Shown here piece by piece: positions 10,922 through 22,713 of a stretch of 33,423 nucleotides of DNA. Position 1 is the stretch's first letter, and each line of letters starts with the position of its first letter. The stretch lies in contig JACQVI010000153.1 of assembly GCA_016209795.1 (NCBI GenBank), positions 1 through 33,423 of the forward strand. The letters run 5' to 3'. The stretch comes from Ignavibacteriota bacterium. GTDB lineage: Bacteria > Bacteroidota > Ignavibacteria > UBA10030 > SZUA-254. The notes under the pieces are model-generated. The model was not told where the DNA came from and searched no databases. It saw only the letters and a program-made list of their open reading frames with translations. Position numbers and translations under genes: made by a program.

Positions 10922-11500
10922 ATGAAGTCTCCAACTGCTCAACCGTATTCAACACTTTTCACTAACCTCATCCAGAAGAAAGATCTTATGCCTCTCAGTA
11001 CCGGCACTCCAGATGAAACAATTGTAAACGTGTTAAAAAAAACCATCTATGAGCAAGTATTTGGCTTCATCAAGGTTAGCGACAAAACTGCAGCGAGGCT
11101 TTGTCTTGCCGGTCTATGGCTGTTGTATGATCATCTTGATGAGTGTCATAAGATCGCCCAATCCATCGAGACAAAAGAAGGAAGCTACTGGCATGCCATT
11201 ATGCATCGGAGAGAGGAAGATTTTTCAAATAGCAAATACTGGTTCCGTCAAGTTGGTGACCATCCAATTTTCTCGGTACTCTTTGAAAAATTAAAAAAAC
11301 TTAGTGCCTCATCAGTACAAGAGCAGTCTACAACATTTTTAAGAGAGCAAAAGCGCTGGGATCCATTTGCCTTTGTTGATCTCTGCGAGTCGGCAGTGAA
11401 CACCCACACGCCCCTGGAAAACCTTTGCCGACAGATACAGCAGGTTGAGTGGCAACTACTGTTTGATTACTGCTACAACAAGGCTGTCGGAAGGCAATAA
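10922..11500 (+). CDS. Conserved protein of unknown function upstream of mqnD (192 aa)
   Basis: I recognise the conserved core (LWLLYDHLDECHKIAQSI, YWHAIMHRREEDFSNSKYWF) as that of soluble hypothetical proteins found in several phyla, but no function is known to me. The protein is rich in charged and aromatic residues, and no signal peptide or membrane segment is visible. Its HxxD/E-type residues around YWHAIMHRRE could be catalytic or metal-binding; that is speculation. The stop lies only 7 bases before the mqnD ATG, and the mqnD ribosome binding site (GGAAGG) falls inside its last codons, so the genes are coexpressed. It has no obvious Shine-Dalgarno of its own; a T-run precedes the ATG. 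Confidence 0.8.
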   Translation: MKSPTAQPYSTLFTNLIQKKDLMPLSTGTPDETIVNVLKKTIYEQVFGFIKVSDKTAARLCLAGLWLLYDHLDECHKIAQSIETKEGSYWHAIMHRREEDFSNSKYWFRQVGDHPIFSVLFEKLKKLSASSVQEQSTTFLREQKRWDPFAFVDLCESAVNTHTPLENLCRQIQQVEWQLLFDYCYNKAVGRQ

Positions 11501-11507
11501 CAAAACA

Positions 11508-12344
11508 ATGATTGAAAAACTTATTAGAATAGGTCACAGCCCCGACCCCGATGATGCGTTTATGTTCTATGGACTCGCCAGTGGCAAAGTGAAACTCGAC
11601 GGCATTCGCATTGAACATTTCTTGGAGGATATTCAATCGCTCAACCAGCGTGCAATGAAGGCAGAATTAGAAGTCACTGCAATCTCTGCGCACGCCTTTC
11701 CGTTTGTTGCCGACAAGTATTGTATTATGCGAACCGGTGCCAGTATGGGGGAAGGATACGGTCCGGTAATTATTTCACGAAAATATGAAACGCTCAGTGA
11801 GTTGAAAGGAAAGATTGTTGCAACACCGGGACCGCTGACGACAGCAACACTTCTCTTCAAGATTTTCACTGACGGCATTAAGAGCATTGACATGTCTTTC
11901 GACAAAATCATGGAAGCAGTCGATAATGGAACTGTTGATGCAGGACTGCTGATTCATGAAGGGCAACTGACGTACAAATCGCTCGGCTACTACAAGGTTC
12001 TTGACTTCGGTGAGTTGTGGGAAAAGGAAACGAACGGACTTCCGCTTCCCCTCGGTCTCGATGTTGTGCGAAAAGATTTGGGTGAAGAGCTTGCACGAAA
12101 ACTTTCACAAGGACTTCGTGACAGCATCAAATACAGCTACAAGCACCAAGATGAAGCCATTCCATACGCCATGCAGTGGGGACATGGGATTGATTACAAG
12201 CTCGGAGAAAAGTTTGTGAAAATGTATGTCAGCGAGCTGACGACTGATATGGGAGAAAGCGGAAAACGAGCACTGGAACTCCTTTTTGACATGGGGAGGA
12301 AGAAACAACTTATTCCCTTGGTCGAAGACTTTGAAGTCTATTGA
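11508..12344 (+). CDS. mqnD: 1,4-dihydroxy-6-naphthoate synthase, menaquinone (futalosine) pathway
   Basis: MqnD converts cyclic de-hypoxanthine futalosine to 1,4-dihydroxy-6-naphthoate, the step after MqnC. The 278-aa product has the periplasmic-binding-protein-like fold of the family, starting IRIGHSPDPDDAFMFYGL. It contains ISAHAFPFVADKY and GASMGEGYGPVIIS. His150 in LLIHEGQLTY corresponds to the catalytic histidine described for this family. ATG 11508 is chosen; the frame is open further upstream to a TTG, but that would overlap the preceding gene and add unrelated residues. The other menaquinone genes are on the opposite strand beginning at 13310, so mqnD converges on mqnC with one unrelated gene between them. 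Confidence 0.95.
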   Translation: MIEKLIRIGHSPDPDDAFMFYGLASGKVKLDGIRIEHFLEDIQSLNQRAMKAELEVTAISAHAFPFVADKYCIMRTGASMGEGYGPVIISRKYETLSELKGKIVATPGPLTTATLLFKIFTDGIKSIDMSFDKIMEAVDNGTVDAGLLIHEGQLTYKSLGYYKVLDFGELWEKETNGLPLPLGLDVVRKDLGEELARKLSQGLRDSIKYSYKHQDEAIPYAMQWGHGIDYKLGEKFVKMYVSELTTDMGESGKRALELLFDMGRKKQLIPLVEDFEVY

Positions 12345-12660: not shown

Positions 12661-13314
12661 GTGAGATACCAGTTCTTGCTCACTCTCGCCTGGGGTACGA
12701 TCTTTGCCGCAAATCCGCCCTTGGCCCACAGCCAGGGCACCATCTTTCTGCTGCGGCACGCCGAGCGAATAGAGTACGAAACGCGAGACGGCCGGCTCTC
12801 GGAAGCTGGCGTAGCGCGTGCGCGCAGGCTGGTCTATTTCCTGAAGGACGCCAGCGTCACGGCCATTTTCACGAGCGAGCGGCAACGGACGATCCAGACC
12901 GCCCAACCACTCGCAGCGGCGCTGAACATTCCGCTCATCTCCATCAGAGGTGGAGCGGCAGAGCAAGTACAAGCCACAATCACCCGTGTGCGCGGCCTTG
13001 ATCGGAATGACGTCGTGGTCATCGTAGGCCATCAAAATACCGTGCTCATGATGCTCAAGGCGTTGGGGAACGAGCAGGATTTGATGAGTGGGGATTGGGA
13101 TTCCCTTCTCGTCATTAGTAAACTGCGGGAGTGGGAAAGGGGTCTTTGGGAGCGATATGACCGGGACTCCCTTCTTGTGATCGATAAGCCTGCTGGAATG
13201 TTGGGGAAGGAACACGTGACGATTGGGAACTATGAGCATGACGACCTTTTTGTGATTGTACGGACCCGGGATGGCCAGTCGACGATCCTACGCCTGAACT
13301 ACTAGCCGTCTAAC
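12622..13314. mobile_element. Candidate imported cassette bounded by a 10-bp imperfect inverted repeat
   Basis: GTTAGGCGGC (12622-12631) and GCCGTCTAAC (13305-13314) are inverted copies with one mismatch. They also fit the integron core-site consensus GTTRRRY and RYYYAAC. The segment between them contains a single gene. It is visibly richer in G+C (about 57-60% in the first two 60-base lines counted by hand, against about 42% in a line of mqnD). The right copy overlaps the mqnC stop codon. No complete attC hairpin or integrase gene is visible, so this is a possibility rather than an identified element. Confidence 0.3.
12661..13305 (+). CDS. Secreted histidine phosphatase family protein with internal repeats
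   Basis: This 214-aa protein has a signal peptide (about residues 1-24, ending LAHSQG) and a histidine phosphatase (phosphoglycerate-mutase-like) domain. The catalytic motif is LLRHAERIE, with SEAGVARARRL, FTSERQRTIQTAQPLA and VIVGHQNTV following. The start is GTG. Relatives usually run from the ALG after the second histidine straight to a VTIGxYEHDDLFV-type end. Here about 46 extra residues intervene, containing degenerate copies of the same block (DWDSLLVI, DRDSLLVI, then EHDDLFVI). The base composition is distinctly more GC-rich than all neighbours, pointing to acquisition from elsewhere. It converges on mqnC with four bases between the stop codons. The natural substrate is unknown. Confidence 0.85.
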   Translation: MRYQFLLTLAWGTIFAANPPLAHSQGTIFLLRHAERIEYETRDGRLSEAGVARARRLVYFLKDASVTAIFTSERQRTIQTAQPLAAALNIPLISIRGGAAEQVQATITRVRGLDRNDVVVIVGHQNTVLMMLKALGNEQDLMSGDWDSLLVISKLREWERGLWERYDRDSLLVIDKPAGMLGKEHVTIGNYEHDDLFVIVRTRDGQSTILRLNY

Positions 13315-14407
13315 AAGCGGCTTTCACCTTCTCGTGCACTTTCAGAATCTCGTACAACGTCGTCCGCTGAGCTGGAATGAATCCTGCATCCTGAATCAAC
13401 TGAATCACTTCGTTAGTATTCGTCTTGTTCACGAAGTTCGCTGCGGCGTGAACATTCTCCTCATAGAGCGTTCCACCAAAATCATCTCCCCCGAAGTGAA
13501 GCGCAATCTGCCCGATCTTCTTGCCTTCAGAAAACCATGATGCTTGAATGTGTTGAAAGTTATCGAGGTAGATACGGGAGATTGCTATGATCTGCAAATA
13601 GCGTGTTGGTGTTGCGTAGTGTGGAATTATTTTTTCTAACGGCGTGTTGCCCGGCTTAAAACTCCACGGAATGAATGCTGTGAAGCCGTGCGTTTCATCT
13701 TGCAACCGACGAATGCTCTCAAGATGTTCGATGATGTCCTCGTCCGTCTCGATATGTCCGTACATCATCGTCGCCGTAGTCTTGAAACCGATCCTGTGTG
13801 CTTCACGCATCACGTTGAGCCAATCGGCAGATGTGCCTTTCAAGCTGCTGATTTTCTTTTTCACACGGTCAGAGAGAATCTCAGCTCCGCCGCCGGGAAT
13901 CGTTCGCTGTCCAGCATCCCATAGTCTTTGCAACACCTCCTGAATCGTGAAACCTGAAACCTGAGACATTCCGATGATTTCTGAGGTGGAAAAGAAATGC
14001 GGCATCACTTCAGGCACTTCCTTCACCGTCCGTTCGACCATCTCGACGTAATACTCGAATGGAAGCTTTGGATTCACACCTCCTTGCAAGAGCACTGTCG
14101 TCACGCCGTTTGCCGCTACTTCTTTGAATTTTTGAATCATGTGGTCAACGCTGTACGTGTATTCCCCATCTTCACCTTCGTGGCGGTAGAACGCACAAAA
14201 GATGCAGTCAACGTTGCAGATGTTCGTGTAGTTTGGATTCGTATCGACAACAAACGTTACGCATGGCTTAGGATTTTTTCGGAAGCGAATTTCATTGGCA
14301 AGATCGCCGAGGTCAAGCAGTTCCGCTTTCTGTAAAAGTGTAAGACCTTCTGCTCGTGTTATGCGTTCGTTGTTTCTGACTTTGTTAAATATTTCTGATA
14401 GTTGCAT
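13310..14407 (-). CDS. mqnC: Cyclic dehypoxanthine futalosine synthase, radical SAM
   Basis: MqnC is the radical SAM enzyme that cyclises dehypoxanthine futalosine in menaquinone synthesis. The 365-aa product shows the cluster-binding CNVDCIFC (Cys64, Cys68, Cys71), LLQGGVNPKLPFEYY, TIPGGGAEILSDRVK, TTATMMYGHIET and a C-terminal ALHFGGDDFGGTLYEENVH, all typical. Its ATG comes one base after the stop of the ParE-type toxin gene, with only a weak ribosome binding site, so translation is probably coupled to the toxin. Its stop codon lies within the right copy of the inverted repeat bounding the GC-rich histidine phosphatase segment, so its last residues may have been rewritten by that insertion. 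Confidence 0.95.
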   Translation of the reverse strand: MQLSEIFNKVRNNERITRAEGLTLLQKAELLDLGDLANEIRFRKNPKPCVTFVVDTNPNYTNICNVDCIFCAFYRHEGEDGEYTYSVDHMIQKFKEVAANGVTTVLLQGGVNPKLPFEYYVEMVERTVKEVPEVMPHFFSTSEIIGMSQVSGFTIQEVLQRLWDAGQRTIPGGGAEILSDRVKKKISSLKGTSADWLNVMREAHRIGFKTTATMMYGHIETDEDIIEHLESIRRLQDETHGFTAFIPWSFKPGNTPLEKIIPHYATPTRYLQIIAISRIYLDNFQHIQASWFSEGKKIGQIALHFGGDDFGGTLYEENVHAAANFVNKTNTNEVIQLIQDAGFIPAQRTTLYEILKVHEKVKAAC

Positions 14408-14408
14408 G

Positions 14409-14708
14409 TTATTCTGATAATAGTTTCTTAGGCAAATCTTGTTTTGAATGAAGAACAGAGACTATTTCACACCTTTCACCAAGTATCCAGTAGACGACCC
14501 TATAGTTTCCAACAATGATCTCACGGACAGTTTCGATTCCAAGTTCTGGTACGATTCGCCCGCTGAATGGAAAAACTCTTAACCGCTCGACTGCGTTGTA
14601 GATTTTCTCTATCGTTACGTCAGCATAGTAGGATAAATCCTTGCTGATACGCTTGGCTATGTCCTGCAAATCGTCTTCCGACTGATCTGACCAATCTATT
14701 TGAGCCAT
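14409..14708 (-). CDS. ParE/RelE-family toxin
   Basis: This 99-aa protein is a type II toxin of the RelE/ParE superfamily. It begins with IDWSDQSEDDLQDIAKRI, contains LRVFPFSGRIVPELG, and ends with VREIIVGNYRVVYWI followed by EIVSVLHSKQ, the usual pattern. ParE-like members target gyrase and RelE-like ones cleave mRNA; sequence alone does not separate them, although the PFSGR...VREIIVGNYRVVY block favours ParE-like. Its ATG lies inside the 3' end of the antitoxin gene (13-base overlap), the standard antitoxin-first arrangement. It sits between mqnE-mqnA and mqnC with essentially no spacing on either side. Confidence 0.88.
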   Translation of the reverse strand: MAQIDWSDQSEDDLQDIAKRISKDLSYYADVTIEKIYNAVERLRVFPFSGRIVPELGIETVREIIVGNYRVVYWILGERCEIVSVLHSKQDLPKKLLSE

Positions 14709-14947
14709 TTCTTCAGTCGTTTTTTTACTTCATCGTGAGGAATAGTCTTTCCTTGCATAATTTGTTTCATGCCATTTTCAATCTTCTGCATGACGTACAA
14801 CTCGTACATAATGTCTTCGTAGGTTACATCATCCCTCAAATTCCGAAGCATTTTCAATGTCGCCTGCTTCGGTTTTGCGAGAATGCTCTGAGCCGAAGAT
14901 TTTTTCTTCGCCGAGTATGCTACTGATTGTTCTTTCACTTTACCCAT
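14696..14947 (-). CDS. Antitoxin partner of the ParE/RelE-type toxin
   Basis: This 83-aa basic protein precedes and overlaps the toxin gene. The N-terminal third is lysine- and serine-rich (KKKSSAQSILAKPKQA) and probably flexible. The rest is helical, with YEDIMYELYVMQKIENGMKQI and a lysine-rich end, as in small antitoxins of ParE modules. ATG 14947 is chosen over 14971 because AAAGGAG lies seven bases upstream. Both that Shine-Dalgarno and the ATG lie within the last codons of the mqnE-mqnA gene, giving an eight-base overlap. Production of the antitoxin is thus tied to translation of a menaquinone enzyme. It may also autoregulate, but no separate promoter is visible. Confidence 0.8.
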   Translation of the reverse strand: MGKVKEQSVAYSAKKKSSAQSILAKPKQATLKMLRNLRDDVTYEDIMYELYVMQKIENGMKQIMQGKTIPHDEVKKRLKKWLK

Positions 14948-16823
14948 GGTGAACTCCTTTGATATTAACACTTTCCGTTTCTTGCGCTAAAGATTTAAAC
15001 TCCCTCATCGCTTCCTTTTCTCGCTCGCCGAGGCGGTAATTAAATCCAGCGAGATATTCTTCCACTTCATTACGATTCAAACCAATTTCCTTTCCACGAA
15101 GTTCTCCAATCTCAGCATATCGCGGCTCAGATTGTGAGAGGGAATGTCCGATGATTTCACTCAATTCTTTTTTTGTTTCTTCAGGCAGCGATTTCTTGAC
15201 TGCCCACACTGCAAAGACGAACGGCAGTTTCTGCCATTCGTACCACTCCCTTGCAAGATCGAACACAAGCTCGAATCCCGCAAGCCCGAATTTATTTCTG
15301 CGAAGCGCTTCATCTCCGATGAGAAGAACTGCATCGTACGCAGAATAATCGTTGACGCCGGCATGGAGCCGCTCGAATCTTGCTCTCACCCCGTATCTTT
15401 TTCCTAAAAGCACTTGCAACAAACGCACAGAGGTTGCCGTTTCATCCGTCACACCGATAAGTTTTCCGTCAAGGTCTCCCCAGCCGTGATTTGAGAACAA
15501 CATCACACTCTTCACCTGATCGCGTGTGGCAATACACCAAGGGAGCAGTGCCAGATGACTTTCTTGCTGAAAATAATCCATCAAGGAAAACAAGCCTGCA
15601 TCGATCTGCCCCTTTTCTGACAAGAGTCCCATTCTCCGCGGATTGATCGGGAGAATCTTGAATTGCTGTTTTTCAAAATGATGATAGAACGGAACGGAGT
15701 TGAGATACGGAATTTTTCCAATCACGTGGTCGGTGTAGACGTTAATCGGATTGTAGTAAACGTCCCGCTCGACAGGAATTTTTCCAGCATCGTTGATGAT
15801 TTTAATAATCTGATTCTTCGCAAGCTGCATCGGCGTGATGGCTCCTGCATCGTGTGCGATATGCTCTTCGCCGACCGTGCCGTCCATATCGTCTGCGCCG
15901 AAGTTGAGCGCAACGCTTGCGACTTCTTCCGTCAGCATCACCCAGTACGCTTTGATGTGCGGGAAATTATCGAGCATGAGTCGAGAGATGGCAATCGTTT
16001 TCAAATCGTCAATTGCTGATGTGAAGTGCGAATGGGCTTTGATTCCCGTATCTCCCGGTTGGAACGCAAGCGGGATGAATGAAAGAAATCCGCCCGTTTC
16101 ATCCTGCAGCTCTCGCAGCTTCATGAAATGAACAATGCGCTCTTCAATCGTCTCGATGTGTCCATACAATAGAGTAGCGTTCGTGGGAATGCCCATCCTG
16201 TGCGCAATGCGGTGAATTTCCAGCCAGCGCTTGGCGCCGATTTTCTGATTGAAGAGCAGGCGCCGCACACGCTCGGAAAACACTTCAGCACCGCCGCCGG
16301 GCATCGTGCGTAAGCCGACTTCTTTGAGTTGGCGCAATACTTCTTCAATGGACATTCTGAATTTCTTAGCAAAGAAGTCGATCTCAACGGCGGTGAACGC
16401 TTTGATGTCGATCTCCGGAAATTTTTCTTTGATGCCGCTGAGCATTTCAAGATAATGTTCCCATCCCCAGTGTGCGGGCATGCCGCCAGTGATATGAACC
16501 TCGTGCAAGTCGGGCGTAAGTTTCGACCAGATGTCTTCGTTCGTCATCTCGTAGGCATCGGGGCGACCGGGTTTCGTGGCGAAGTCACAGAACTTGCAGG
16601 AGAGGACGCAGATGTTGGTTGGCTCGATTTTGCGGTTGAGGACGAAGTAGACCGCATCGCCGCTCTTCTGCTGCTGGACGAAGTGCGCCATCTTGCCGAG
16701 TGAGATGATGTCGTTCGTGTTGTAGAGCGCCACGCCGTCTTCGAGCGAGAGACGATTACCGTTCTGGATTTTTTGCCAGATGGGGATAAAGAATTTGTCT
16801 CTAAATTGAATGCTCACATTCAT
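14940..16823 (-). CDS. mqnE-mqnA: Bifunctional aminofutalosine synthase - chorismate dehydratase (MqnE-MqnA fusion)
   Basis: This 627-aa protein joins two menaquinone enzymes. Residues 1 to about 358 are MqnE, a radical SAM enzyme making aminofutalosine. It has CVLSCKFC (Cys72, Cys76, Cys79), HITGGMPAHWGWEHYLEM, TMPGGGAEVFSERVRRLL, LLYGHIET and ALNFGADDMDGTVGEEHI. From about residue 366 to 615 it is MqnA, chorismate dehydratase, with VIGKIPYLNSVPFYHHF, QIDAGLFSLMDYF, GVTDETATSVRLLQVLL, HAGVNDYSAYDAVLLIGD and FDLAREWYEWQKLPFVFAVW. The joint is very short, with no obvious linker. MqnA makes 3-enolpyruvyl-benzoate, the direct substrate of MqnE, so the fusion links steps one and two. I see no internal stop or frameshift. 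The gene follows the broken endonuclease by about 18 bases. Confidence 0.93.
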   Translation of the reverse strand: MNVSIQFRDKFFIPIWQKIQNGNRLSLEDGVALYNTNDIISLGKMAHFVQQQKSGDAVYFVLNRKIEPTNICVLSCKFCDFATKPGRPDAYEMTNEDIWSKLTPDLHEVHITGGMPAHWGWEHYLEMLSGIKEKFPEIDIKAFTAVEIDFFAKKFRMSIEEVLRQLKEVGLRTMPGGGAEVFSERVRRLLFNQKIGAKRWLEIHRIAHRMGIPTNATLLYGHIETIEERIVHFMKLRELQDETGGFLSFIPLAFQPGDTGIKAHSHFTSAIDDLKTIAISRLMLDNFPHIKAYWVMLTEEVASVALNFGADDMDGTVGEEHIAHDAGAITPMQLAKNQIIKIINDAGKIPVERDVYYNPINVYTDHVIGKIPYLNSVPFYHHFEKQQFKILPINPRRMGLLSEKGQIDAGLFSLMDYFQQESHLALLPWCIATRDQVKSVMLFSNHGWGDLDGKLIGVTDETATSVRLLQVLLGKRYGVRARFERLHAGVNDYSAYDAVLLIGDEALRRNKFGLAGFELVFDLAREWYEWQKLPFVFAVWAVKKSLPEETKKELSEIIGHSLSQSEPRYAEIGELRGKEIGLNRNEVEEYLAGFNYRLGEREKEAMREFKSLAQETESVNIKGVHHG

Positions 16824-16841: not shown

Positions 16842-17428
16842 TTAGAAATCACTTGGTTCAAACTCGATCTCTATTCCATCATCGGTTTTGGAATAGTAAA
16901 CTATCACCCCGACTAGTTGTTCTCGTTGAATAACCTGCTCCTTCCAGGATTTTGGTTTGATCGAAACCTCAGTATTTCCGATGGCTCCATCAATTCCTCT
17001 GGACTCTTCTTCTGCAGTTGCTAATCGATATTGAAGCTTAACTACTTGTGACACCTTCTTTAGTATTGCTTCTTGAAAACGTAATCCAATAAAAGTTTTT
17101 ACTAAGACTAAGTCTTTTACCCATCGTTCAATCATACCATCTGTGATCTGATCGATTACTCGATGAAATTCATTGAGTTTTTTCCGTATTAAACAACGGC
17201 GTCACTGACCGTATTAGGATATCTTTCTTGATACCATTTAGCCCAATCGTCTAATGTGCGTCCATCAAAATCTTGTATAAGGTCGCTCATCTGACCTACA
17301 ACTCGTGGTCTTGTTCCACCTGCAAAACGGTTTGCCAAATTGAGAATCGGAGAAACGTACGTTGGCAAAACTGGAGAAGGAGCATTTAATGCCTCTCGAA
17401 CCTCAGACAGGGTTAGGACGATCTTCAT
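16842..17428 (-). pseudogene. MjaI-like type II restriction endonuclease broken by a frameshift
   Basis: Two adjacent fragments make one protein. The first (17428-17189, 79 aa) contains LPTYVSPILNLANRFAGGTRPRVVGQMSDLI. The second, readable in another frame down to 16842, contains MIERWVKDLVLVKTFIGLRFQEAILKK and RLATAEEESRGIDGAIG. Together they match, from memory, the MjaI family (PF09568), which cuts CTAG. The first fragment ends at TAA (17189-17191) after GCC GTT GTT. Restoring one T in the T-run there would give AVVLIRKKLNEFHRVIDQITDG and join both halves into about 195 aa, the expected size. A one-base deletion or a sequencing error explains the break. It lies 19 bases after the methyltransferase gene. 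Confidence 0.75.
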
Positions 17429-17447
17429 TTACAACCGAGGTTTGTGC

Positions 17448-18785
17448 TTAATTAGTAGAGAATCCTTTGTATTGTACTTGTCTCTTGTTAATATTCACTG
17501 ATTCGAGAATTGATTCGAATCTCCTTTTGTATTTATAATCGTAGTCTGTGTCGATATTTACCAGACCTCTCTTAATCAAGTGTGCATTAATGAAAGTTTT
17601 GTTCCTCAAGTAAACGTATGCAAGCAAGTTGCCATTTTCGTCGTACTTATTTTTGTCGTACTTCAGAAAGACCTGTTCGCTCTTTATCTTCGTTGTGAGG
17701 AATTCAATTGCTTTTTCTCTTTGCCTTGGATCTTCTTTCACCCCAAGCAGCCTAACCATTAAACCATTGTTGAGTCTAATCAACTCGGGGCTTAAAATTT
17801 CCTTAACGCTGTATAATTCGATTCTTCCTCCCGAATCACCCTGCTCAATCTTTGATCCAAACTTCAACTTGCGTGGGTCAATTCTCTTGTCAAGTTTGTG
17901 GGAGTCAACAAACTTGTATGGCAGTGAATCTATCTCTCTATTGAAATCTCGGTCACCGAGCTTTTGTATAATAAATTCATATGTAGCATCCCCGAAAATA
18001 TCATGATCTGATATCTTGAGCCTGTTCTTAATGGTAGTAATAAATTTGGCATTTATTTCATAACCAACCGAATTCCTGTCCAGATTCTTTGCTGCTAAGG
18101 AGGTTGTTCCACTACCAAGAAATGGATCAAGCACAGAATCTCCAATGAAGGAGAACATTCTAATCAGACGCCGTGGAAGTTCCTCGGGGAACATTGCAAG
18201 ATGTTTGTCCTGTTTTTCACCAGCAAAATTCCAGTGTCCAGTAAAGTATGTATTCCATTCTTCCGCTGTAAGCTTCGAAAGTTCCTTGATTTCTCTACTA
18301 ACTCTTGGTGGATCACCAAGTTTCTTGAATATTAAGATAAACTCATAGTCAATCTTTAGGATGCCATTTCGTGGATACGGGAATGAGCCCATGACTGTTG
18401 CCCCGCCTGTAGTATTTGTAGTAGTTACTTTTTGCCATATAATGGCACCCATGTAATCCATTCCCAGAGCTTCACAGAATTTGATTATCTCTGTCCTGAT
18501 GGGTATTACTTTATAGCGACCATAATAGACTGAACGAGCGAATTGATCTCCGATATTAACGCAGAGTCGACAACCCTTGTGTAAAACTCTATGACACTCT
18601 TTCCACACAAGATTAAGATTGTTAATGTAACTTTCGTAGGATTCATGGAAACCTATTTGGTTTTCCTCTCCGTAATCCTTCAGTTGCCAATATGGTGGAG
18701 AAGTAATAATAAGATGTACCGATTCATCAACAAGTTCAGGCATTTGTCTTGAATCGCCAAGTATTATCTTGTGGTGAGTAGCCAT
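17448..18785 (-). CDS. Site-specific DNA methyltransferase with C-terminal SNase-like domain
   Basis: Residues 1 to about 260 are a beta-class amino-methyltransferase: catalytic motif IV TSPPYW at 28-33 comes first and the AdoMet motif DPFLGSGTT at 220-228 comes last. SPPY is typical of N4-cytosine enzymes, including the MjaI-type partner expected for the neighbouring endonuclease; the inferred target is CTAG. From about 320 to 440 there is a staphylococcal-nuclease-like region: VRLLGVKEDPRQREKAIEFL, VFLKYDKNKYDENGNLLAYVYL, INAHLIKRGLVNID. Only Arg345 of the SNase catalytic set appears kept. The position of the second arginine is Asn386 and the DTPE-type acidic residues are replaced by KEDP, so this domain is probably non-catalytic. 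The 445-aa length is well above that of a simple methyltransferase of this class. Confidence 0.85.
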   Translation of the reverse strand: MATHHKIILGDSRQMPELVDESVHLIITSPPYWQLKDYGEENQIGFHESYESYINNLNLVWKECHRVLHKGCRLCVNIGDQFARSVYYGRYKVIPIRTEIIKFCEALGMDYMGAIIWQKVTTTNTTGGATVMGSFPYPRNGILKIDYEFILIFKKLGDPPRVSREIKELSKLTAEEWNTYFTGHWNFAGEKQDKHLAMFPEELPRRLIRMFSFIGDSVLDPFLGSGTTSLAAKNLDRNSVGYEINAKFITTIKNRLKISDHDIFGDATYEFIIQKLGDRDFNREIDSLPYKFVDSHKLDKRIDPRKLKFGSKIEQGDSGGRIELYSVKEILSPELIRLNNGLMVRLLGVKEDPRQREKAIEFLTTKIKSEQVFLKYDKNKYDENGNLLAYVYLRNKTFINAHLIKRGLVNIDTDYDYKYKRRFESILESVNINKRQVQYKGFSTN

Positions 18786-18934: not shown

Positions 18935-20746
18935 TCACTTCCAAATCTTTCCCCACTTCTCATCCACACGTTTCACAATCTCATCGGTCATCACGAGCGG
19001 CTCGGGGTACCCAGGTTTCCATGTGGAATCAATGCCGAGCAGGCCTTTGTACACGGGCGAGATGCCCACGAGCTTCTGTTCTGGAAACATCACGTCACGT
19101 TCGCAATCGAAGCGAGTAAAGACTCCCCAAATATAACTCTCTTTGTCGTGAATATCCACATCAGAGGAGACAAGAGCGAGGAGTTTGAGTTTACTTAGTT
19201 CTGGAAGAGAAACGAGCTTTTGGAGAAGTTCTCTACTGCTTACAGGTTCGAGGTTTGGGGTTACAGGTGATAGGTGTTGGGTGATAGGTGTATCAACTTT
19301 GACTAACAAGAGCGTATTTTCAACAAGATTCACATCGAGAATTCGTCTATCGAACGATTTTAGATTTTTGATTTTTGATTTTTGATTTTCATCTGTAACC
19401 TCTAACCCGTGACCTCTAACCTTCTTTGTTGCGTCTATTATCATCTTGCTTCCCAAATTCATTTTATAGCTCGTGAAGTCGAGCGTATCGAGCGGGACTT
19501 TGGGAATCATGATGAAATCATAATGCGGGTCGAAGTTGTTATGAATTTCTCGAAGCACGGCGTGCCAGTCACGCACGTTCACTCCAGCAGAAACGGTGAC
19601 CATACATTTCGTGAGCGAAAGCTGGTCGGTTCCCATCAAGCCGAGCGCCGCTTTCATAGCTTCTTTTTGATAACGCTGCTCGATGGCAACGACAAGCAAG
19701 TTGTGAAATCCCGCTTCGTAATATGCCCAGAGACTTTCAACTTCTTTATGAATCAGCTTCACAAGCGGACCGAGCATCTGCTGTGTCGCATCGCCCAAGA
19801 ATTTATCTTCCATCGGCGGCTTACCGACAACGATTGCAGGATAAATCGGATTCTTTCGGTGCGTGATTGCCTTGATGTGGAAGACCGGAAACTCTGCGGC
19901 GGCGGAATAATGTCCAAAATGGTCGCCGAACGGTCCCTCCATTCTTCGTTCTTTTGGAGGAACAATTCCTTCGAGAATAAATTCAGCGGAAGCTGGAACG
20001 GGAATCGAAATTGTTTTTCCCTTTGTAAACTCAACTCGTTTGTTCTGAAGAAATCCAGCGAACATCGCTTCGTCGATTCCCTCGGGAAGTGCGGCGACAG
20101 TTGCGATGAGCAGTGCGGGATCGGTTCCAAGTGCAACGGCGAGTTCGAACTCTTTTCCTAGCTTCTCCGCTTGATAATAATGAAACCCTCCGCCCTTCTG
20201 AATTTGCCAGTGCATTCCTGTCGTCGATTTATCGAACACATGCATGCGATAGATACCGATATTGCGTTTTCCATCTCCTGGATCGTATGTGATGACTTGT
20301 CCGTACGTGATGAAGCGTCCGCCATCATGGGGCCAGCAGACTTGGATTGGAAGTGCATCAAGATTCGGCTGAACAACGACCTCTTGTGAAAGTCCCGAAG
20401 AAACTAATTTTGGTCGAGCGTTGAGAAATCGTTTAACTGTCAGTTTGTTATCGAGAAGTGTTTTGAGCGTCGGCGGAAATGCTCGTTCAAGAAATCGAAT
20501 GAGTTCTTCACCGATCTGGACGGGATGTCTGCCAAGTGCAAGCTCGATGCGTCGTGCACTTGAGAAATGATTGACAATGATAGGAACGTTCGAACCTTTC
20601 GGACGCTCTATTAATAGAGCGGGTTTGCCTTCCTTCAGTGCACGAGTGGAAACTTCAGTGAGTTCTAATACAGGGTCAATTTCAACCTGCGTGCGGTGAA
20701 GTTCGCCGCTGCGTTCGAACGATTGAAGAAATTCACGAAGAGCCAT
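18935..20746 (-). CDS. ubiD: UbiD family decarboxylase, late menaquinone synthesis (MqnL-like)
   Basis: This 603-aa prenylated-FMN-dependent decarboxylase is expected to remove the carboxyl group of the prenylated 1,4-dihydroxy-6-naphthoate in the futalosine route. Signature blocks are RNIGIYRMH (161-169), ASAEFILEG (252-260) and EGPFGDHFG (270-278). Residues about 443-465 and 486-503 are encoded by low-complexity tracts: a seven-base tandem repeat reading GATTTTT on the plus strand (19363-19389), TAACCTCTAACC-like copies (19395-19421), and TTACAGGT/GATAGGTG-like copies (19240-19290). These expand surface loops without breaking the frame. It is longer than the classical E. coli UbiD, but UbiD-like proteins of about 600 aa occur in menaquinone producers. 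It lies three bases after the nucleotidyltransferase. Confidence 0.93.
   Translation of the reverse strand: MALREFLQSFERSGELHRTQVEIDPVLELTEVSTRALKEGKPALLIERPKGSNVPIIVNHFSSARRIELALGRHPVQIGEELIRFLERAFPPTLKTLLDNKLTVKRFLNARPKLVSSGLSQEVVVQPNLDALPIQVCWPHDGGRFITYGQVITYDPGDGKRNIGIYRMHVFDKSTTGMHWQIQKGGGFHYYQAEKLGKEFELAVALGTDPALLIATVAALPEGIDEAMFAGFLQNKRVEFTKGKTISIPVPASAEFILEGIVPPKERRMEGPFGDHFGHYSAAAEFPVFHIKAITHRKNPIYPAIVVGKPPMEDKFLGDATQQMLGPLVKLIHKEVESLWAYYEAGFHNLLVVAIEQRYQKEAMKAALGLMGTDQLSLTKCMVTVSAGVNVRDWHAVLREIHNNFDPHYDFIMIPKVPLDTLDFTSYKMNLGSKMIIDATKKVRGHGLEVTDENQKSKIKNLKSFDRRILDVNLVENTLLLVKVDTPITQHLSPVTPNLEPVSSRELLQKLVSLPELSKLKLLALVSSDVDIHDKESYIWGVFTRFDCERDVMFPEQKLVGISPVYKGLLGIDSTWKPGYPEPLVMTDEIVKRVDEKWGKIWK
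19240..19290. repeat. Low-complexity repeat tract inside ubiD (GATAGGTG / TTACAGGT type)
   Basis: On the plus strand this tract contains TTACAGGTTCGAGG, GGGTTACAGGTGATAGG and a repeated GATAGGTGT. It encodes residues about 486-503 of UbiD (DTPITQHLSPVTPNLEPV) in frame. Its wording looks like an interspersed intergenic repeat rather than coding sequence under constraint. Confidence 0.55.
19363..19421. repeat. Heptanucleotide tandem repeat and adjacent degenerate repeat inside ubiD
   Basis: Nearly four copies of GATTTTT run from 19363 to 19389, followed by two copies of a (G)TAACCTCTAACC/GTGACCTCTAACC unit up to 19421. They encode a charged loop of UbiD, roughly residues 443-463 (RGHGLEVT, then ENQKSKIKNLKS). 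Seven-base units change the reading frame by one base per copy, so copy-number change would switch the gene off. Confidence 0.65.
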
Positions 20747-20749
20747 ACA

Positions 20750-21274
20750 TCAGGAATGGATGCGGCTCTGGAGATCTAGCGGGAGTAACGCTTTCAATTC
20801 AGGATGCGATTCGACAAGCCGAAGAATGTCAGCAAGATCTTTCTGGCGTTTACTTTCTCTCCGCTCCGGATCAGAATACGCCCAGAGCTTACCTCTGAGA
20901 ACATCTTCCAAAGAAGCTACTGAAAGCTCATATCCCAGAACTTTTTTTGTGACTGTACGACGAATAAATTCCTGGTAACGACTGTCAGTTTGAATCTGAA
21001 TTCGGAGGTCGGAAAACTCAACTGAAATATTAATGCTGTGCTTTTCTTCCTTTATGGAATAGTCTTTAGAAAAAGAGGAGAGTAGTTTTTCTCTATCACT
21101 TGTTGCGATAATAATATCCAAGTCAAGACTGACCACAGGTTCAGCGTAAGCATTAACAGCCAAACCACCAATTACACAGTAGTGAATCTTGTTTTGGTTG
21201 AGGAGCGCAAGAAATTCTCCCAAGAAATCCCTGCTACTGTGAGTTACCTTGTTTGTAAATTCCTTTTCAGTCAT
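20750..21274 (-). CDS. Nucleotidyltransferase-fold protein (AbiEii/MNT-like)
   Basis: This 174-aa protein has the minimal nucleotidyltransferase signature: IGGLAVNAYAEP (Gly36-Gly37) followed by SLDLDIII with Asp51 and Asp53. Further on is LEDVLRGKLWAYSDPERRESKRQKDLADILRLVE, the K...RxxxKxxxD pattern of AbiEii/DUF6036-like nucleotidyltransferases, many of which are toxins or antitoxins in bacterial defence pairs. No partner (AbiEi, HEPN) is adjacent. It sits exactly between ubiX and ubiD with three bases on either side, so it is cotranscribed with menaquinone genes. Alternatively it is a domesticated housekeeping enzyme; its substrate is unknown. Confidence 0.75.
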   Translation of the reverse strand: MTEKEFTNKVTHSSRDFLGEFLALLNQNKIHYCVIGGLAVNAYAEPVVSLDLDIIIATSDREKLLSSFSKDYSIKEEKHSINISVEFSDLRIQIQTDSRYQEFIRRTVTKKVLGYELSVASLEDVLRGKLWAYSDPERRESKRQKDLADILRLVESHPELKALLPLDLQSRIHS

Positions 21275-21277
21275 TCA

Positions 21278-21829
21278 TTACTCCAATTCCTCCGCTCTCC
21301 AACCCTTCGATTCTCTCAGTCCTAACACACCAAGAAGCTTATCTGTAAATGCACTCACATATTCTTCAACAGTTTTTGGGACAAAATACAGCGGTGGACT
21401 AACGGGCATAATGATGGCACCAGCTTGAGAGAGCCTTGCTGCTTGTTCAAGAGCGATTGCCGAGATCGGTGTTTCACGCACACAGATGACAAGTTTGAAT
21501 CTCTCCTTCAATGCAACCTGCGCCGTACGCGTGATAAGCGTATCGCCAATGCCTGAGGCAATTTTCCCAAGCGTTGAGGTTGAGCAAGGAATGATCACGT
21601 ACGCATCAAATTTATTGGAGCCAGAAGCAAGCGGTGCAGTGAGATCGTCATTTTGAAATTGTCGCTTGACGTAGGGCTGCAAATCCTTTTCTGACATGTT
21701 CATTTCGTCTTTCAGCAAAGCTTTACCCCACTTACTTACGATGAGAAATTTATCGCTTGGACATTTTTTCAAGAAATCAACGGCATGGACCACTCCCGAT
21801 GAGCCGGTAATGCCGACGACAATTTTCAT
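21278..21829 (-). CDS. ubiX: UbiX family flavin prenyltransferase (MqnM-like)
   Basis: UbiX makes prenylated FMN, the cofactor of the neighbouring UbiD. The 183-aa product starts with the flavin-binding IVVGITGSSGVVHAVDFL. It contains VIIPCSTSTLGKIASGIGDTLITRTAQVALKER and the RETPIS block, and ends with SPPLYFVPKTVEEYVSAFTDKLLGVLGL, all family hallmarks. Its ATG overlaps the ubiA stop by four bases (ATGA, 21826-21829), indicating translational coupling. The nucleotidyltransferase follows three bases after its stop. Confidence 0.95.
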   Translation of the reverse strand: MKIVVGITGSSGVVHAVDFLKKCPSDKFLIVSKWGKALLKDEMNMSEKDLQPYVKRQFQNDDLTAPLASGSNKFDAYVIIPCSTSTLGKIASGIGDTLITRTAQVALKERFKLVICVRETPISAIALEQAARLSQAGAIIMPVSPPLYFVPKTVEEYVSAFTDKLLGVLGLRESKGWRAEELE

Positions 21830-22659
21830 TTGAACGCAGCTCCCGTTACAATCATCGCAAAGACAACAAACCCCAGCGCTGCATTTATCTGGAAAAAGGC
21901 AAGTTCAACGTTCGATGCCTTACGTTGTTCATACCAGAGAAGTAAACCAGCTATGGCTAATAGAGGTATAGCATACAGCGTACGAATCGTAGTAAAAAAA
22001 AGTAATGTTAAGCAAATAAACGCTATAAGATGAAAGAGAGCTGAAAAAGCGAGACCTTTGTTCTTTCCATATCGAGAGACAAATGAATAGAGATGCTCTC
22101 GCTGATCAAACTCTTCGTCCAGCGTAGCATAGATGATGTCGAACCCGGCTCCCCAGAAAATAGTGAACACGGAAAGTAAGACTGCTGGAAAAATATTATG
22201 AAAGGAAGGAGACGCTGCAAAATATCCACCCAGTGGTGCCATGGACATACCAAGCCCCACACCGAAATGAGCAAACACTGTGAAGCGCTTCATGAATGGA
22301 TAGGTCACGAAGATGATGAGCGGAATTGGCGAGAGCATTAGACAGAACGATGAGATCAACGCTGCGGAACCAAGATAAAGTGTGCAACCAACGGCAAGTA
22401 CACAAAGCGCTTCTGCGAGAGTCATCGTACCACTCGGAAGCTCCCGCATTGCAGTTCGTGGATTACGCTTGTCAATATCTCGATCAACGATTCGATTTAA
22501 TGCAAAAGCGGCAGTCCTAGCCCCAATCGCAACGACTAGAACGAGAATGAGCAATCGAAGAGAAGGAGTCTCATTCATTCCCAGCAATAGCCCACTATAA
22601 ATCAGTGGAAGTGTGAACAAAGTATGCTCGATCTTGACAAAATTGAAGAATTTTTTCAC
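21826..22659 (-). CDS. ubiA: UbiA family prenyltransferase of menaquinone synthesis (MqnP-like)
   Basis: This membrane prenyltransferase is expected to attach the polyprenyl tail to 1,4-dihydroxy-6-naphthoate. The two aspartate motifs are NRIVDRDID (NxxxDxxxD) and DIIYATLDEEFDQ (DxxYxxxDxxxD). About eight to nine hydrophobic helices follow the usual UbiA pattern. GTG 22659 (277 aa, beginning KKFFNFVKIEHTLFTLPLIYSG) is preferred because GGAA precedes it and relatives begin there. A TTG at 22713 would add 18 unlikely residues and overlaps a candidate -35 box. It is the first gene of the menaquinone cluster here. Confidence 0.92.
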   Translation of the reverse strand: MKKFFNFVKIEHTLFTLPLIYSGLLLGMNETPSLRLLILVLVVAIGARTAAFALNRIVDRDIDKRNPRTAMRELPSGTMTLAEALCVLAVGCTLYLGSAALISSFCLMLSPIPLIIFVTYPFMKRFTVFAHFGVGLGMSMAPLGGYFAASPSFHNIFPAVLLSVFTIFWGAGFDIIYATLDEEFDQREHLYSFVSRYGKNKGLAFSALFHLIAFICLTLLFFTTIRTLYAIPLLAIAGLLLWYEQRKASNVELAFFQINAALGFVVFAMIVTGAAFK

Positions 22660-22684
22660 ACTTGTTCCAGAAAAATGGTTTGAA

Positions 22685-22713
22685 AATATAGACAAAAATG
22701 GAGTTTGAAGCAA
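22685..22713 (-). promoter_or_regulatory. Candidate promoter of the ubiA-led menaquinone cluster
   Basis: On the minus strand TTGCTT (22708-22713), a 17-base spacer and TATATT (22685-22690) lie about 25-50 bases before the GTG start of ubiA. The -10 box is good and the -35 box is weak. A small hairpin, CGTCG-tggag-CGACG (22726-22740), lies upstream, between this promoter and the end of the vWA gene. No T-run follows it. Confidence 0.35.

Follow-up and report, generated by a model that had tools for sequence, protein, structure and literature searches.

In the futalosine pathway of menaquinone synthesis, MqnA converts chorismate to 3-[(1-carboxyvinyl)oxy]benzoate (3-EPB), from which MqnE, using a 5'-deoxyadenosyl radical derived from S-adenosylmethionine (SAM), makes aminofutalosine. 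The intermediate has been obtained in isolated form and supplied to MqnE as a free substrate, and neighbouring genes whose products catalyse consecutive steps commonly fuse in evolution. The gene order mqnE-mqnA-mqnC is that of a described operon, mqnEAC (PMC4746308). The same genes occur in the same order in the window, the whole 33,423-nucleotide stretch of DNA analysed here (contig JACQVI010000153.1 of an Ignavibacteriota bacterium); however, mqnE and mqnA are separate in the operon and form one gene, mqnEA, in the window. The domain order MqnE-MqnA is not odd, since it copies the gene order of mqnEAC. No published MqnE-MqnA fusion was found in the literature on MqnA, MqnE and futalosine or on Ignavibacterium and menaquinone, with subscription journals lying mostly outside that search, and earlier annotation of the fused proteins in UniProt or InterPro is quite possible. 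The locus represents a new architecture of known enzymes, each half being an ordinary known enzyme.

The coordinates and length given for mqnEA by the initial annotation proved exact, as did its residue numbers and motifs (GADDMDGT at residues 309-316, IPYLNSVP at 371-378 and GVTDETATSVRLL at 457-469, in addition to the radical-SAM motif); the strand, absent there, is minus (Table 1). The uninterrupted 627-residue frame does encode a complete MqnE followed by a complete MqnA, with both profiles covered over their full length. The junction is 6 residues long in most fused members, 7-9 in some others and, in a single case, 21. Production of a free MqnA from a start codon within the junction was considered and rejected, no such start being conserved and 17 of the 45 fused genes having none there; the window's gene carries GTG at V367, and no Shine-Dalgarno-like site was detected in the junction stretch of the 45 genes.

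Table 1. Positions of the fused gene, its parts and neighbouring genes in the window, and of the family f8 loci in other genomes.
Feature	Position	Strand	Basis
mqnEA, fused MqnE-MqnA CDS, 627 aa	14940..16823	-	ATG-started single frame, no internal stop
MqnE domain (aminofutalosine synthase, radical SAM), aa 16-360	15744..16778	-	TIGR03700 469-471 bits, above cut-off
CxxxCxxC motif, aa 72-79	16587..16610	-	sequence; invariant cysteines
Junction, six residues, aa 361-366	15726..15743	-	length comparison among fused members
MqnA domain (chorismate dehydratase), aa 368-615, with N375, S439, Y590	14979..15722	-	PF02621, active-site positions, tree (MqnA, not MqnD)
mqnC, cyclic dehypoxanthinyl futalosine synthase	13310..14407	-	TIGR03699 473.7 bits, above cut-off
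mqnD-like gene (1,4-dihydroxy-6-naphthoate synthase)	11445..12344	+	PF02621 252.8 bits; groups with MqnD in tree
UbiD-family menaquinone decarboxylase (MqnL-like)	18935..20746	-	TIGR03701 504.6 bits, above cut-off
UbiX-family flavin prenyltransferase	21278..21829	-	TIGR00421 160.9 bits, above cut-off
UbiA-family prenyltransferase (MqnP-like)	21826..22713	-	TIGR01475 254.6 bits, above cut-off; MqnP models below cut-offs
ParE-type toxin gene with preceding 91-aa frame	14408..14971	-	PF05016 60 bits
MjaI-type restriction enzyme, C-terminal part	16842..17135	-	
DNA methylase with nuclease-like C-terminus	17448..18785	-	
174-aa frame, weakly AbiEii-like	20750..21274	-	PF08843 28 bits
Family f8 loci	L127:3732-7052, L146:1652-3865, L147:1423-2568, L148:2316-5473, L149:3420-6661		

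In the N-terminal half, TIGR03700 matches residues 16-360 over profile positions 2-351 of 351 with 469.1 bits, above its curated cut-off of 434.55, and in a phmmer search of the PDB residues 16-364 align to the Pedobacter heparinus MqnE 6xi9 (E=7.8e-83). The best Foldseek matches of this half of the predicted structure are the same enzyme (6xig/6xi9, TMt 0.83-0.85), and the cysteines of the radical-SAM motif (C72, C76 and C79) are invariant in all 45 fused proteins. Full-length domain, CxxxCxxC motif and fold are therefore those of a complete radical SAM MqnE, as initially claimed; unlike the solved enzyme, the window's protein bears a C-terminal MqnA domain. A second MqnE above the TIGR03700 cut-off was not found in the genome, the next match being MqnC.

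In the C-terminal half, PF02621 matches residues 368-615 over profile positions 3-252 of 252 (174.6-177.6 bits, cut-off 26), and residues 366-611 align by phmmer to Streptomyces coelicolor MqnA (7ahr/2nxo, E=2e-22 to 8.1e-22). This half of the model resembles solved MqnA structures (TMt 0.78-0.84) more than MqnD (0.71), and in the PF02621 tree the fused domains fall inside MqnA, with MqnD forming a separate group (support 100). Variants of the S. coelicolor enzyme deposited in the PDB have a changed Asn (7an6, 7an7), Ser (7an8) or Tyr (7an9), at positions that align to N375, S439 and Y590 of the fused protein; from these deposits we take N375 and S439 to be catalytic. Neither varies among the 45 fused proteins; at the Y590 position, 41 have Tyr and 4 have Phe. 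The full-length domain, the fold and the retained Asn, Ser and Tyr positions, shared with MqnA of S. coelicolor (SCO4506, 7ahr/7an5) and Deinococcus (6o9a), bear out the annotation of this half as a complete MqnA. It differs from these solved enzymes in not being free-standing, its first strand following the C-terminal region of MqnE with about 6 residues between the two cores.

PF02621 matches three proteins of the genome: the fused one, the window's MqnD and a 266-residue protein on contig 32 (L003). In the last, Phe replaces the MqnA Asn and Thr replaces the Ser; it has no NCBIfam match, and on these sequence features is unlikely to be a chorismate dehydratase. The initial annotation had left room for a second, standalone mqnA and mqnE; we found no other MqnE and no catalytically plausible MqnA in the genome. 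The gene of the divergent paralogue (L003:1414-2214 in G000) adjoins rplS-, trmD- and rimM-looking genes. A PF02621 protein is also the lone family member in same-order genomes without MqnE (G022, G029, G037, G049 and G052), which suggests a role outside menaquinone synthesis.

A search of 60 related genomes, mostly from the window genome's own family and order, recovered a junction-spanning frame in 48: it is full length in 44, and in the other 4 it crosses the junction before a contig edge or a break cuts it short. Many independent assemblies among the GTDB species genomes scanned have the same architecture. The fusion is not limited to the window genome but is the rule in its order, where genomes with both halves always have them joined, breaks in metagenome-assembled genomes (MAGs) aside; almost all named fused records are MAGs. 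Compared with the nearest sampled relative (L087, 81% identity), dN/dS is 0.150/1.709 (about 0.09) for the MqnE half and 0.133/1.934 (about 0.07) for the MqnA half, values near 0.1 that indicate purifying selection on both. The MqnA half changes faster than the MqnE half, with a mean majority-residue share of 0.65 versus 0.82 and identity to the window's protein of 60% versus 75%. Several candidates for further fusions were rejected. An apparent triple fusion of MqnE, MqnA and MqnC (L030, 898 aa) has a partial MqnA in its main frame and a further piece in a second one, the pattern expected from a frameshift in a single MAG, and was left out of the counts; in other Bacteroidota families (G225 and G249, open frames of 656 and 677), at least one stop lies between the genes.

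Mapped on a phylogeny, as the initial annotation had proposed, the fused proteins form one clade in both domain trees. Specifically, all 48 fused rows of the MqnE-domain tree lie on one side of a single branch (SH-aLRT 97), as do all 40 fused rows of the MqnA-domain tree (SH-aLRT 91), which points to a single fusion event, each tree needing one change of state. No reversal to separate genes was found among the sampled members of the fused clade in the MqnE tree. The fusion ranges over Ignavibacteria and close kin, one KSB1 MAG (L028) and one 'Deltaproteobacteria' MAG (L027), the last two reflecting either transfer or binning error. In both trees the neighbours of the fused clade are MAGs of Chloroflexota (SAR202, Dehalococcoidia), Latescibacterota and Acidobacteriota, all with separate mqnE and mqnA. 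In several of the nearest unfused relatives the start of mqnA lies in another frame, 10-16 nt ahead of the stop codon of mqnE, and the sequence for the MqnA core sets in 2 nt past that stop; the tails of the unfused mqnE (for example, IHVYEN) resemble the fused linker (for example, INVYTD), and the linker length agrees. Since the two genes abut or overlap out of frame in these relatives, a one-base frameshift within the overlap would be the simplest route to the fusion. The locus L132:1343-3310 (G225) holds mqnE and mqnA in one reading frame with a single TGA stop between them, an arrangement that could give rise to a further fusion. Separate genes also occur in two families of the same class (f12, f20) and one of the same phylum (f29); as these are placed elsewhere in both trees, their loci and the fused one probably do not share a common inheritance, and lateral transfer of the operon is likely.

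A distinct fusion, of an N-terminal MqnA to MqnC (L127, L146, L148 and L149), occurs in family f8, which belongs to the same class; four of its genomes carry it (G061, G071, G079 and G087). As in mqnEA, MqnA has a radical-SAM partner from its own pathway; unlike mqnEA, the f8 fusion has MqnA at the N terminus and MqnC as that partner, and it represents an independent event. The MqnE homologue of these genomes, adjacent to the fusion in three and on a different contig in G061, retains none of the three radical-SAM cysteines in any of the four; its predicted fold is nevertheless confident (pTM 0.84). No other MqnE was found in the two f8 genomes searched, G079 and G061.

MenD is absent from the 96% complete assembly of the window's genome, so the futalosine route is the sole menaquinone route found there. 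An MqnB or MTAN nucleosidase, which would carry out the next step, was not found in the assembly and may lie in its missing part; the single PF01048 protein, considered for this role, is a purine-nucleoside phosphorylase. A futalosine hydrolase was likewise not found in this genome or in other tested relatives outside f8; in f8, a weakly futalosine-hydrolase-like gene lies beside mqnD (G079:C28:88865-90370). Several genes of other kinds are interspersed with the pathway genes in the window. Between mqnEA and mqnC lies a ParE-type toxin gene, preceded by a 91-residue frame, probably of its antitoxin, that overlaps the end of mqnEA. The DNA methylase and the MjaI-type fragment, the latter possibly broken upstream, together (16842-18785, minus strand) separate the UbiD gene from mqnEA, with almost no gap in several relatives, and the AbiEii-like frame lies between the UbiX and UbiD genes.

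The AlphaFold (AF2) model of the whole 627-residue chain has a mean pLDDT of 94.5 and a pTM of 0.92, which, for parts of about 360 and 260 residues, would imply confidence in their relative placement. The model predicts two intact folds in an apparently fixed arrangement; a PDB chain spanning both halves was not found in the structure search. Together with the sequence comparisons, this makes it very probable that the enzyme encoded by mqnEA is genuinely bifunctional and catalyses both of the first committed steps of the futalosine pathway, having arisen once and been kept since. The C-terminal domain would dehydrate chorismate to 3-EPB, and the N-terminal domain, with its [4Fe-4S] cluster and SAM, would add the 5'-deoxyadenosyl radical to 3-EPB to give aminofutalosine. 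The mqnE stop would have been lost from the adjacent, overlapping mqnE and mqnA of an mqnEAC operon, and the fusion would have persisted as the sole MqnE found, in this genome with no intact standalone MqnA beside it. A single chain would fix the dosage of the two enzymes at 1:1 and keep them close together; this co-localisation and fixed dosage are probably the benefit, and direct channelling is possible. The comparisons establish the fusion itself, the completeness of its halves, their conserved catalytic positions, a single origin and the lack of another intact copy in this genome; from these we infer both catalytic activities and any functional gain.

Other explanations of the joined frame differ widely in probability. 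The assembly is a draft of MAG type in 263 contigs, in which an assembly error or frameshift could have joined two genes, and the initial annotation had allowed for a missed stop or frameshift near residue 360; the identical frame in dozens of independent assemblies refutes such an artefact, to which we give practically no credence. It is also very improbable that only one half is catalytic, the other surviving as a remnant with a regulatory or structural role while the contig 32 protein acts as the chorismate dehydratase. The faster divergence of the MqnA half and the existence of a third PF02621 protein would fit this explanation, but Asn375 and Ser439, replaced by Phe and Thr in the contig 32 protein, are invariant in all 45 fused proteins, dN/dS of the MqnA half is about 0.07, and PF02621 proteins stand alone in same-order genomes without MqnE.

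Two further alternatives concern what has kept the halves together. The stop loss may have been fixed by drift and persist only through the difficulty of reverting it, leaving two independent enzymes on one chain, an explanation we regard as a real contender whose chances fall somewhat below even. The single origin, the close unfused relatives one frameshift away, the L132 lineage, where a lone stop separates two in-frame genes, and the unequal rates of the halves all accord with it; against it, no sampled member of the fused clade has reverted, and the halves stay joined in every same-order genome that has both, MAG breaks aside. Conversely, selection may maintain a channelling enzyme in which MqnA hands 3-EPB to MqnE with no release from the protein. 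A short junction of nearly constant length, the whole-chain pTM suggestive of a fixed arrangement and retention of the fusion throughout the order speak for this, but one member has a 21-residue junction, the overlapping operon was already co-translated, and dosage or chance can account for the fusion. The premise that the MqnA product is unstable, part of the initial annotation, was not supported, the compound being stable enough to be handled free. We consider channelling unlikely, and equally doubtful the fuller proposal of a clade-defining bifunctional chorismate-to-aminofutalosine enzyme whose rigid two-domain geometry lets 3-EPB made at the dehydratase site channel to the radical-SAM site.

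As a very probable bifunctional enzyme, MqnE-MqnA offers independent 'Rosetta-stone' support for MqnA and MqnE acting together in consecutive steps, and provides one polypeptide for direct tests of the conversion of chorismate to aminofutalosine, of domain geometry and of possible channelling. In the fused clade, annotation pipelines that look for mqnA and mqnE as two genes may score the pathway as incomplete. The fusion itself marks a clade of Ignavibacteria-type bacteria.
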